The translations under genes were made by a program, and so were the position numbers. From Syncephalis fuscata (taxonomy: Eukaryota > Zoopagomycota > Zoopagomycetes > Zoopagales > Piptocephalidaceae), in contig JAHLTZ010000023.1 in the NCBI GenBank assembly GCA_025786725.1, positions 372,001 to 436,000 on the forward strand: a stretch of 64,000 nucleotides of DNA, given 5' to 3'. A model generated the notes under the pieces. It was not told where the DNA came from. It saw only the letters and a program-made list of their open reading frames with translations, and searched no databases. This document shows, piece after piece, positions 40,962-45,828 of the stretch (its first letter is position 1; every line of letters starts with the position of its first letter).

Positions 40962-43060
40962 CTATAGACGATAGATGCGTGCACCAGCACCGGCACGACA
41001 TACAAATGCAGCTGTATTAGGATCCACCAAATTATCATGATTTGAATAATAAGCGGCAGACACATTTTTTGAAAACTGATCAGCATTTTCTTCTGATACT
41101 AGTGCTATACAACAGCCGCCCCAGCCGGCACCGGTAAGTCTTGCGCCATAAGCACCATTGTTTCTATTATTGCACATTTAATTAGTAATTGTTTTTGTTG
41201 TACAGATTAAAATAACGCTACCGGCAAATCTCGGTTAATCTATCCAATTCTGGACAGCTACATTCGTACAAATCTCTGCAGCTATCTTGACTTTGATTCA
41301 TCAAATACCAAGTATCTATTGTACGTAAATACTTGATCATACTAACTTAATCTGCCCTTACTGTTTTAAACTCTTCCTGTTGCTGTATAGTAGTTGCATG
41401 GACCGCTGCCTTCATACAGACTTCACGAAAACGACACACACGTGCCGCTTCCGAGTATACATGATAGGCTCTATCGTGTAATTTCAATTTATCTACTTGC
41501 ACAGGAATTTTAACAAGTAAGTATTTGACAGCTCCTGCATCTATATCAAACTATTAGTTAGTAGTGTAAGTATTTCAATAAACTACTATATAACTTGCCG
41601 TTATCCCAGCAGCTACGGCTACTTCTTCTAAAGTATAAGTAGGCTGTTTAAACACTGCATCTACTTGATTTAAAAGCAACTCTAACGCTTCTGCATCCTC
41701 GCACGCATCATCGCTTGTGTAATAGCCTTTTTTGTTAGCCATAATTGAGCTACACCACGTAGTGTAAACGTTTCTAATGTATGATTGTTTTTTATGTCAT
41801 TCATATCAGCCGCACTATTAGATGGGGAGAAGAGATCAAGTTGGTGGGCCAGTATTCGAGCAGCCAATCGAGTTTCCAATACACGTATATTAAACTGATA
41901 ATCTGCAGCCATTGCTTTCTCAGACATTACTAACGAATTAAATACAACAATGGCAGATTGTGGCGGTAATGGAATTGGAGCAGCAGCTAATGTTGGCTGG
42001 AATCGAATAAATAAGGCATGGTCACTTTCGGCGAATAGACTGCACGTCTGGTCCATTCTATACTTTTATGAATAACATTTTATATAGCACACAACAAGCT
42101 TACCCGCCTCCGTTCGTACCAACATACTGTTCTGAACGTGCACAAGTAATGGCAAGCTGGCTCTAAATCGCCTTTCATAAGTATTACGATAATTGAAATT
42201 GCAGCCATAACTTAGCCAACTAATCACCTTAGTAAATGTCCAATTATTAATAGCAGTTGTAGCCAGCGCGGAAGCCACTACCAAAGCCGATGAACTTGAT
42301 AATCCAGCATCCTAAATAAATAATAATTAATTTGACACAGCTTTAACGCTTAATGTATGCTACTTACCGCTGGAATCGTTCCCTCTACTAAAATATCGAT
42401 ACCATGTAATTCTGTGGCCCTCGCGTCTTCAATTGCTCCCTAGTAATTTGTGATGAAGCCTCGTTTCAATAATAAATTATCCCATTGCTTACTCGAATAC
42501 CACATTTTACATAATTCGTCCATCGGTGGTGTTTTACATCAATATCCACTGCACATTGCGTCCCGGTTGTATCGAAGCATCGCAGGTCAAATGTTTCACG
42601 CGCATAATGGCTAGATTGCGTACTAGCAACATTAACCATAGCGGTGTTACCAGCAGATGTATGTGTACTATTGCTAGAGCAGGCCACTAATATATCCCGA
42701 TCTAGAGCCACAGGCAATACGGCAAACTCGGCATAATCAATATGCTCGCCTGTATCGGTATACTGTTGTTAATGCCAATATTCTCCGATAAATCCGACCT
42801 ACCTATTAGATTGACGCGTCCCGGTGCACGTGCAATGTATTGCGGTGGTCGGCCGTATAATTCGGCAAATTGCTGAACCAGCTGCTTATATCGTTTGCTA
42901 CTTGAATAGTAAGGGACCGTATATGATATTTAATCATTGGCTTATATTGTCATATAAACATTCACTACACTTACACAAGTAAAACAGTTTCTTCAGACAA
43001 AGCTTGATCTAGATCAATAGTAGGCACAAGCCCCTCAGGCTTTGCAAAACAGCTTTCCAT
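40962..43060 (-). CDS. GAL1: Galactokinase, with two frame breaks
   Basis: GHMP kinase phosphorylating galactose in the Leloir pathway. Ten minus-strand exons: 43060-42975, 42900-42803, 42749-42493, 42439-42368, 42311-42228, 42162-42104, 42057-41599, 41550-41362, 41315-41222 and 41163-40962. Allowing two missing bases gives 533 residues (yeast Gal1 ~528). Signatures: [14 protein letters not shown] (near residue 55-68), [14 protein letters not shown] (ATP loop), GGMDQ, and C-terminal [12 protein letters not shown]. The intron 41598-41551 begins GCAAGT and ends AG (GC-AG type). One frame break is near 41695-41700; the other is at the exon 8/9 junction (~41362), where phases fit only if one base, perhaps a G before GTAAGG, is missing. 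Divergent from the IF1 gene, with 245 bp between start codons. Confidence 0.93.
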
Positions 43061-43760: not shown

Positions 43761-44747
43761 ATACCGTTTAATTTACTAATGACTTTATGTCGTGTTGGTG
43801 TTTGATTGGCACTGTAGTTACTATTTCAATAATACTACACATCTATAAACTGACTGTTGGACACAATTAATTCATTACTTGTTTAATTGATTAGTTTACT
43901 GTTCGACATTATAAAAAAATTGCTTCATATTTGTATTGATATCCATGTATTTGTTAACTGGTTATCGCACAGTGTACCACTTATTAGTTGATCATCACAG
44001 TATATTATTTATTAGAAGCTACTGTATTTTGAATATTTATCCTTAAACTGAGATAAAGATCCGTAACTCGAATAATAAACCGTCGATCAGTTTTACTACT
44101 GAGAAGGGATTTGTTACAATGTCATATCAACTTTGATTGAATTAATCAGTGGCAATCAATCTGCACTATTTCCAATATCAAAATAAATAAATAATATTTT
44201 CATGCTACTTACAATAAAGTATTACATTTAATTATGACGTTGATGCAACAGTGTCAGTTTGATTTCTTATAATAATAGGTGGTAAGAAATCAGAAGGCCT
44301 TGATTCACCACTGGCCATTGTACTGAATATACTGTGCATGTTTCTGCTGGCATTAACGTCACGCTGTCATACCATACGACAATTATTGTTTTGACAAACA
44401 AGTACGCTATGCATTGTGCTGTTGTGTTTTTCCATATGTAAATCTGCCATCTTCTTTTTCTTGCATTTGGAACAGACTTTTGATGTATTGTATTCATCAA
44501 TATCTACGATCACCAAAGTTCTTGTCGCTCAGCAGTTTTGAGCACCTTTCTGCAACGATTGACCAACAACAACAATGATCAGCCTTAAATGTTTCAAATA
44601 AATCAAATAGTATGCTACATTCTTTATTAAATGTTTATTGTAAATGATCATTTAAATGCAAATTAATCTAATCAACTCGTCAACTATTTATATCATTACA
44701 ATCGATTGCGTAAAATGATTTGCTGCCTTGGGGTATTAAAATAAATA
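43761..44747. other. Intergenic AT-rich region containing the Fanzor-like relic
   Basis: Outside 44232-44600 this interval shows no coding potential. It holds the 3' flanks of IF1 (plus) and the SDR gene (minus). Confidence 0.5.
44232..44600 (-). pseudogene. Decayed C-terminus of a Fanzor/TnpB-like RNA-guided nuclease
   Basis: One minus-strand frame, from ~44600 to the TAA at 44234-44232, reads like the end of a eukaryotic TnpB homologue. In order it has G-x-S-x-Q-K-G (44562-44542), a hydrophobic strand leading to DEYNTSKVCSKC (44500-44463, the T-S-x-x-C-x-x-C start of the zinc ribbon), CQNNNC (second Cys pair), and QRDVNASRNM (44366-44337), the last RuvC aspartate motif. Two in-frame TGA codons interrupt it, at 44531-44529 and at 44369-44367. 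The latter sits where the family usually has Trp just before the R-D motif, so a single G-to-A change would explain it. The RuvC-I part and N-terminus are absent; only ~120 codons remain before the SDR gene at 44748. The relic is flanked by AT-rich DNA; no terminal repeats were found. Confidence 0.6.
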
Positions 44748-45828
44748 TCAATCAATTAAAAAATCAGCACCCAGTTTTTCATGAAATATATCTTGCGTAA
44801 ACTCCCAAAACTGGTCTTGTAATTGCTCGTCATTAGTAGCGGCACTTGGCTGTCCAATCTGACCATATGGTATAAAGTAGGCGCCGTTACATTGTCTTTC
44901 ACCTGCTTCTGGTGCAGTAGCTGCGAATAACGTAGTCAGTGCGCCATCGGCTAGCGGTACAGAGAACGGTGCGCTAGTTAATGTTAATAAAATATTTACA
45001 AACCAACCCAACGATTCATATGAGTATCTAGATATTTCTGAAGCTACAACGCCAGGATGAACAGCACTGATAATTACAGGCAGTGTGTTGTTTGTGGGTT
45101 CATTTGATTCAGATGTTGCCATTTGACGTGCCATCTTTTTGGCCGTTAGAATATTGGCCAACTTTGTATAGCCATAGCATAATAAAGGTGAATAAATAGC
45201 TGCATCATTGACTTGTGCCAAAGTCATCCGCATTGGCCCGCTATAGCTGAAGTTATGGCCACGACTGCTTGTAAATATGATTCGTGCCGGTTCTGTCGCC
45301 GTACCAGCCGCAGTCACTGCCGATAATAATTGCTGTGTAAACAGCGTGGGCCCTAAATGATTAACAGAAACTGAAACTCGATGCCCGTATCTTCTGTTAG
45401 CATAAATGGTGTAGCCATAACACCAGCATTATTGACAAGCAAATGAATTCGAGGTTCTTTGGCTAGAAGCGTAGTGGCGGCATCAAGAACTTGATGTAAA
45501 TCGCCAAGTTAAGTAGAAGAAAGTAAAGTTCTGGACTCTGTCTATTATCGTCGGTAGCAGTTTCTTGAAGTGTAGCCTTTATTCTTTCAATGGCACCAAT
45601 GCGCGCTCTTTGTTTCGACAAGCTAAGTAGACACGGCAACCATGACGTGCTAATTCCAATGCTACTTCATAGCCAATGCCGGTGTTGGCTCCTGTTACGA
45701 CGGCTACCTAATTCCCTTTGTCATTACAAGCTTCTTATACTATTATTATTGCTTACCTTGCTGGTAAGATCGGGTATGTTATCCACAGAGAAAGGTGTTG
45801 AAAAGAAGCTGTTAATATATTTATTCAT
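44748..45828 (-). CDS. Short-chain dehydrogenase/reductase (retinol dehydrogenase-like), three frame breaks
   Basis: NAD(P)-dependent SDR of unknown substrate. Minus-strand exons are 45828-45757 and 45707-44748, with a 49-bp intron, giving 344 residues if three missing bases are allowed. Signatures: N-terminal DLTSK then [12 protein letters not shown] (dinucleotide-binding loop, ~25-36), L-A-C-R-N, LLVNNAG, catalytic Ser in I-I-F-T-S-S, and the Y-x-x-x-K pair in [10 protein letters not shown], then H-P-G-V-V. The order and the N-terminal helix match RDH11-14/WWOX-type and fungal homologues. Breaks lie near 45598-45603, 45505-45510 and 45365-45372; each is restored by one added base and sits between conserved blocks. 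Three breaks within 240 bp could also mean a pseudogene, but all have the same sense. Confidence 0.85.

Follow-up and report, generated by a model that had tools for sequence, protein, structure and literature searches.

The window, a stretch of 64,000 nucleotides from Syncephalis fuscata, contains a 739-bp non-autonomous element (44015-44753, minus strand) that is bounded by imperfect terminal inverted repeats and holds the remnant of a Fanzor gene at each end. The two remnants, modules A and B, are both homologous to Fanzors, belong to different families and stand in divergent order; copies of the element and its parts are numerous in the genome, and several of them share disabling changes. 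The feature is an internally deleted element and not a full gene that decayed in place, which corrects the picture drawn in a sequence-only reading of the same DNA. The extent proposed there for the nuclease relic, 44232..44600, does enclose the relic, but the element itself reaches from 44015 to 44753. The copies probably derive from an ancestor with two Fanzor genes, from which internal deletions produced short non-autonomous elements that were multiplied in trans. The parts of the element, in window positions, are as follows.

44015..44753, minus strand: whole non-autonomous element, inverted repeat to inverted repeat, 739 bp (copy similarity and end models)
44730..44753, minus strand: left terminal inverted repeat, about 24 bp (majority sequences of both ends)
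44566..44627, plus strand: tail of module B, the second Fanzor family, 3' end towards the left terminus (tblastn)
44565..44566, no strand: junction of the internal deletion, module B to module A (pieces apart in other copies)
44232..44566, minus strand: C-terminal relic of family A with RuvC-II side, zinc ribbon, RuvC-III and stop, and a frameshift near 44516
44493..44495, minus strand: codon of the Fanzor-type alternative glutamate of RuvC-II, with the first Cys six residues further on (spacing as given in a passage of PMC10711439)
44379..44474, minus strand: zinc ribbon, C-x2-C and C-x4-C (sequence and PF07282)
44367..44369, minus strand: TGA at a usually conserved Trp (relatives in alignment A6)
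44358..44360, minus strand: final RuvC-III Asp codon, R-D-x-N-A (alignment A6)
44015..44231, minus strand: 3' non-coding end, kept among copies, the place that a Fanzor guide RNA would come from (78% mean identity, 20 copies)
44015..44038, minus strand: right terminal inverted repeat, about 24 bp (majority sequences of both ends)

Module A is a Fanzor relic

On the minus strand, the window reads LVIVDIDEYNTSKVCSKC...CQNNNCRMV*QRDVNASRNM...VASTS* from 44516 to 44232 (asterisks denote stops), and the minus-strand reading LVIVDIDEYNTSKVCSKCKKKKMADLHMEKHNSTMHSVLVCQNNNCRMV*QRDVNASRNMHSIFSTMASGESRPSDFLPPIIIRNQTDTVASTS* closes at a TAA (44232-44234). With the stops masked, this fragment matches PF07282 at 44337-44513 (37.4 bits, E 2.8e-9, cut-off 26.3). 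The NCBIfam model guided_TnpB gives E 2.8e-5 and 23.5 bits, far short of the 100 bits that this model demands of whole proteins. The zinc ribbon is complete in Cys, and RD follows it in alignment A6. Its second Cys pair, noticed already from the sequence, is present, but as C-x4-C instead of C-x2-C; the same spacing is found in Rhizopus P0009 and in that part of Guillardia Fanzor1 which was aligned. In the window segment EYNTSKVC (DIDEYNTSKVC), the alternative RuvC-II glutamate stands six residues ahead of the first Cys. According to a passage of PMC10711439, this spacing is typical of Fanzors and also occurs in one minor group of TnpBs from bacteria, whereas the corresponding distance in most TnpBs is about 50 residues.

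A profile built from family A copies recovered 76 of 4440 candidate proteins at E<=0.01, 65 of which carry PF07282. The best relative is a protein of Rhizopus delemar (51% identity over 94%, E 1.5e-34); a protein search from one A sequence returned none of 246 candidates at E<=1. Organism names are attached to 20 of the 76 relatives, all of them fungal; 19 belong to Mucoromycota, and the remaining one, Quaeritorhiza, lies outside that group. These results bear out the proposal of a Fanzor/TnpB-like nuclease relic. An unrelated zinc-ribbon protein might be considered in its place, given that the fragment is short, that zinc ribbons are common and that one-ribbon families appear at weak scores. 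This is highly improbable: PF07282 is the sole Pfam family at E<=1, most relatives of the family carry it, and the order Ealt, Cys4, W-x-R-D-x-N-A-x-x-N is common to the window fragment and nine relatives. No other family gave a clearly better match in the searches made.

PF07282 matches 40 places in the genome (28.95 Mb in 299 contigs), namely window 44337-44513 and 39 others, in agreement with the suggestion that this fungus hosts or hosted Fanzor elements. The evidence thus supports the window relic as the remnant of a Fanzor gene in a genome full of such remnants. Judged by sequence comparison, family A is likely to be Fanzor1 and not Fanzor2, and its fungal relatives are unclassified gene models. 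In PDB searches, neither one A sequence nor profile A1 had a match at E<=1 or at E<=10. Profile A3, which mixes families A, B and C of this genome, placed Guillardia Fanzor1 first (5.7e-5), followed by mimivirus L79 (2.3e-4), Cas12g, Parasitella Fanzor1 (1.4e-3), TnpBs and SpuFz1 (0.028). Because mimivirus L79 is close behind and family A alone has no PDB match, the assignment to Fanzor1 falls short of proof. Family C is a third group of broken, Fanzor-like relics (L004 on contig C235 and L007 on C92), about 33% identical to A; one C sequence matched mimivirus L79 in the PDB (0.0022), with ribosomal protein S22 next.

The sequence-only reading had placed G-x-S-x-Q-K-G, the zinc ribbon and QRDVNASRNM in one frame interrupted by two TGA codons. 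The series from the zinc ribbon to QRDVNASRNM holds, but G-x-S-x-Q-K-G is out of the Fanzor frame. One T of a run is gone from the window copy, and as a result of this 1-base deletion near 44516 the motif is the same DNA read in the wrong frame: LVNRCRKVLKTAERQEL (44566-44516) lies in the frame next to that of LVIVDIDEY (from 44516 onwards). Sister copies pass through the same region in a single frame (NRCRKVLKTAERQ.LLVIVDIDEYNTSK); in the stretch before the zinc ribbon, their sequence is FGAARFATSMKGKVAGLANRYRNVLKTAERQELLVIADIDEYNTSKVC, and that of a relative from Rhizopus delemar is DNRIPMIAFGAITFSQTMRGTISGLARRCYKALKTAEAEGLLVVLDIDEYNTSQVC. The first TGA lies in the frame of G-x-S-x-Q-K-G and is therefore not an in-frame stop. 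The second TGA (44367-44369) is real and sits, as had been supposed, on a Trp position, which is W in all nine relatives of alignment A6; two relatives outside A6 have F (P0004) and Y (P0010) there.

A live gene, either spliced so that the breaks are introns or with TGA read as Trp, would agree with the position of this TGA and with the many exons that Fanzor genes can have according to a passage of PMC3627910. Such a gene can be practically dismissed, since some sister copies have W at the TGA place and others have TAG or TAA elsewhere in the fragment, and the upstream part is missing, the left element end lying 187 bases before the junction 44565/44566. The feature is filed as a Fanzor-derived relic and not as a Fanzor because of the frameshift near 44516, the TGA at 44367-44369 and the missing N-terminal part.

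Ends of the element

The right limit, 44015, is a sharp end of similarity among copies, and the left limit, 44753, was set by aligning the left ends of other copies; the left-end and right-end models match the window once each. Read inwards, the majority sequences of left and right end agree at 16 of 24 positions, which was equalled by 1 in 10,000 shuffles (best of nine offsets; 14 rows for the left end, of which L027 is misplaced, and 18 for the right). The inverted repeats are symmetric: at either side, 10 nt lie outside TACTTT. Inspection of the flanks for terminal repeats, advised on the basis of the sequence, thus revealed imperfect repeats of about 24 bp at both ends. No clear signal of a target-site duplication was found in 15 copies over 640 combinations of length and offset.

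Segments 44762-44563 and 44565-44015 adjoin in the window and are several hundred bases apart in other copies, indicating that the window copy itself is internally deleted. The interior lengths of the loci differ, while both ends and the divergent order recur; the left ends of the family come in two kinds. If the relic were a plain pseudogene, that is, a full-length Fanzor transposon decayed in place outside any non-autonomous family, the stops and the frameshift of the window copy would be expected. The presence of both element ends at a distance of just 739 bp would not, and sister copies miss the interior in the same manner and have disabling changes in common at several loci. This alternative is accordingly very improbable.

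The minus-strand frame at 44748-45428, which we take to encode a protein like short-chain dehydrogenases, ends in GAT TGA, and with the left limit set at 44753 these are the first six bases of the element (44748-44753). The insertion of the element may thus have set the present end of this gene.

Module B, the second Fanzor tail

The B remnant of the window was detected by tblastn at 44535-44627 on the plus strand (E 1.5e-7), the part before 44566 lying in module A. A reversed B, with the 3' ends of both modules outward, occurs upstream of A in 23 of 29 A loci, or in 19 of 24 when one member of each of five near-identical pairs (L040, L053, L031, L034 and L032) is left out. The weakest cases among the 23 are L056 and the window copy. 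B was not seen at six loci (L038, L039, L041, L052, L053 and L055), and a forward B fragment is also found upstream of A at L026, L032, L048, L049 and L056. By coordinates, ten A/B pairs lie no more than 4 kb apart, and in nine of them B is upstream and oppositely oriented; of the eight pairs that B forms with other right ends over the same distance, only five are divergent. In four of the six pairs of B and left end within 1.5 kb, the left end is on the opposite strand at 380-393 bp from where B starts. The 3' end of B thus makes up the left end of the element.

The B profile recovered 13 of 5277 candidate proteins at E<=0.01; they are fungal, and 12 carry PF07282. These relatives read VDEYLTSQICP...WNRDHMASINIRS. 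In this genome, the glutamate is gone in all four rows of alignment A4 that reach its place and is kept by the L030 copy, 7 of 11 rows have Asn in place of the final Asp, and only one of four B rows scanned passes the PF07282 cut-off. B is thus mostly a dead remnant here. At three loci with B by itself (L057-L059), it consists of remnants with no longer Fanzor frame. Most of the 150 B places listed have no neighbouring A or right end in the match lists, which argues that B also multiplies on its own or in other combinations.

These observations bear on a composite origin, in which separate Fanzor transposons A and B came to lie with inverted 3' ends and were mobilised as a unit by their outer ends, with no ancestor that held two genes. 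The far greater abundance of B, its solitary occurrence at the three loci above, the extra forward B pieces and the two kinds of left end all favour such an origin. Against it stands the recurrence of the divergent order and of both ends in many loci of differing interior length, and a composite is unlikely, though it deserves more weight than the other alternatives.

Two further features of B loci were seen. Most B copies carry, ahead of the zinc ribbon, an additional stretch of about 190 bases that the L008 copy lacks (seen in L058 and L059 against L008); the stretch may be an insertion or an intron, or L008 may have lost it by deletion. At L057 (contig C266, 5200-6900), the B remnant adjoins a frame on the opposite strand, which presumably encodes a retrotransposon gag.

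Copy number and multiplication after loss of coding

The genome holds at least 150 B matches (all 150 scored among 876 candidates, the weakest at E 1.8e-25), at least 40 right ends (40 of 40 scored; 182 candidates) and at least 55 left ends (40 of 368 candidates scored). These counts are lower bounds, yet some contigs look like mutual duplicates. A 1-base deletion just before the Cys pair, giving ATCAAAGTC for ATCAAAAGTC, is shared by 6 of the 16 copies in which the site is readable (it is unreadable in 13 of 29), and L049 and L055, judged by translation, share it. Slippage in a run of A may happen repeatedly, and the deletion by itself is therefore no proof. At nine short loci, similarity to the window starts at one point, 44360; among the 55 strongest A places, 27 have their start at residue 62-68. 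For two A blocks, the ratio between amino-acid and silent change is 0.74 (23 copies) and 0.62 (17 copies) in the true frame, in neither case the lowest of the six frames (0.34-0.85 and 0.57-0.82, respectively). The common frameshift, the common deletion junction and the lack of frame-specific constraint suggest that the copies multiplied after coding had stopped, which requires a transposase from elsewhere.

Search for a transposase, an intact copy and a 3'-end RNA

None of the searches with PF00239, PF01385, PF14214 and MULE models tied a transposase to the element family. The serine recombinase model PF00239, for which an IS607-type Fanzor2 element would be expected to give a match, had none in the genome, whereas it matched in 10 of 14 control genomes. 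PF01385 likewise had none, which is weak evidence as the model is of the bacterial type, and the Helitron model PF14214 was uninformative, with no match here or in the controls. MULE transposase gave 14 genome matches. When their positions were compared by eye with those of the A places and of the right and left ends, one of the 14 (C279:15327-15614) proved to be 1.6 kb inward of a left end (C279:13703-13809). This match is a lead, as MuDr-type fungal Fanzor1 elements are described in a passage of PMC3627910. Four strong MULE matches have open frames of 204-243 aa (contigs C279, C90, C264 and C267).

An intact copy elsewhere in the genome, which the sequence-only reading had anticipated, was not found with P0014 or P0011 as the query. 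P0014 gave 52 genome matches, none over residues 1-36, and P0011 at least 148 (150 of 313 candidates scored), none over residues 1-48. Both queries are partial gene models that themselves lack RuvC-I, and the DPG motif lies outside the window remnant. The missing N-terminal matches do not prove absence, because exons may be short, the queries are partial and, as noted in a passage of PMC3627910, Fanzors vary in their N-terminal half.

The 3' region (44015..44231) is 78% identical on average over 20 copies. Its consensus fold has 32 pairs, eight of them changed on both sides; none of 500 shuffles had as many, the copies being related to one another, and slid versions of the alignment scored below the true one. 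Taken alone, the 3' region of the window copy has a z of -0.29, and 75 of 200 shuffles fold as well. Rfam gave no match to this region at E<=1. The guide RNA of SpuFz1 arises from a 3' inverted-repeat region, according to a passage of PMC10432273, and the position of the region here would fit a guide RNA in this respect.

Origin of the element

In the most likely course of events, the ancestor would have carried two different Fanzor genes that pointed outward, the 3' end of each forming one terminus. Internal deletions would then have removed the middle and N-terminal parts of both genes, leaving the C-terminal modules back to back, and the short elements, making no Fanzor protein, would have been multiplied by an outside transposase that recognised the inverted repeats of about 24 bp. 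The window would be one old copy of this non-autonomous DNA transposon family, altered further by a deletion that fused the B tail to A, by the loss of one base near 44516 and by the change of a Trp codon to TGA. No element with two whole Fanzor genes was seen in this genome. Several other observations count against this origin: B was not seen at 6 of 29 A loci, five loci carry a forward B, only five of the eight pairs of B with other right ends are divergent, most B places listed lack a neighbouring A or right end, three of the four B rows scanned score below the PF07282 cut-off, no transposase is tied to the family in the searches made, and the copies compared have no clear target-site duplication. 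It is also conceivable, if improbable, that these are protein-less elements with a Fanzor guide-RNA end at each terminus, spread to hundreds of sites in this fungus. If so, they would be RNA-bearing parasites of Fanzor that depend for their retention or renewed copying on a Fanzor produced from another source. The two-gene ancestor, the multiplication in trans and any guide-RNA role of the ends are inferences.

Comparison with known elements

MITEs are short non-autonomous DNA transposons. The present elements resemble them in being short and non-coding, with inverted repeats, high copy number and internal deletion, but differ in that both ends are Fanzor 3' ends. Fungal Fanzor1 elements that lack their own transposase have been described in Rhizopus, Phycomyces and Mucor (passages of Bao and Jurka, 2013; PMC3627910). 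Among these, the MuDr-type elements ROr-4, PBl-3 and MCi-4 (PMC3627910, section 12) are likewise fungal, bounded by terminal inverted repeats and devoid of a transposase of their own. They have 9-bp target-site duplications, of which the 15 copies compared here give no clear signal; nor are the genome's MULE matches tied to the element family. The Helitron2 elements with Fanzor1 (CRe-1, 2 and 3), as presented in a passage of PMC3627910, share hairpin-like sequence near both ends and a Fanzor1 cargo. Helitron2 has asymmetric inverted repeats and RepHel, whereas the inverted repeats here are symmetric and there is no evidence of Rep (the model being uninformative).

The Fanzor1 proteins of Mucoromycota, as described in parts of PMC3627910 and PMC10432273, have in common with module A the TNB zinc ribbon, the alternative glutamate and the final R-D-x-N-A. 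The closest relatives, in Rhizopus, Umbelopsis, Mucor and other genera, reach 51% identity, and terminal inverted repeats are a further likeness. In contrast to these proteins, the C-terminal part alone is present here, with a frameshift and a stop, and two Fanzor families lie in one element. No description of an element with a Fanzor remnant at each end was found in the open-licence PMC literature searched.

The biological role of Fanzors is called unknown in a passage of Saito et al. (2023; PMC10432273). Fanzor 3' ends at the opposite termini of protein-less, high-copy elements would offer a case for testing whether the ends themselves are under selection, the candidate features being a guide RNA or transposase sites. 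By itself, the window copy is ordinary, a dead element next to a gene. The window also has an open frame at 42702-42929 on the minus strand, which, from its motif, we take to be the start of a galactokinase.
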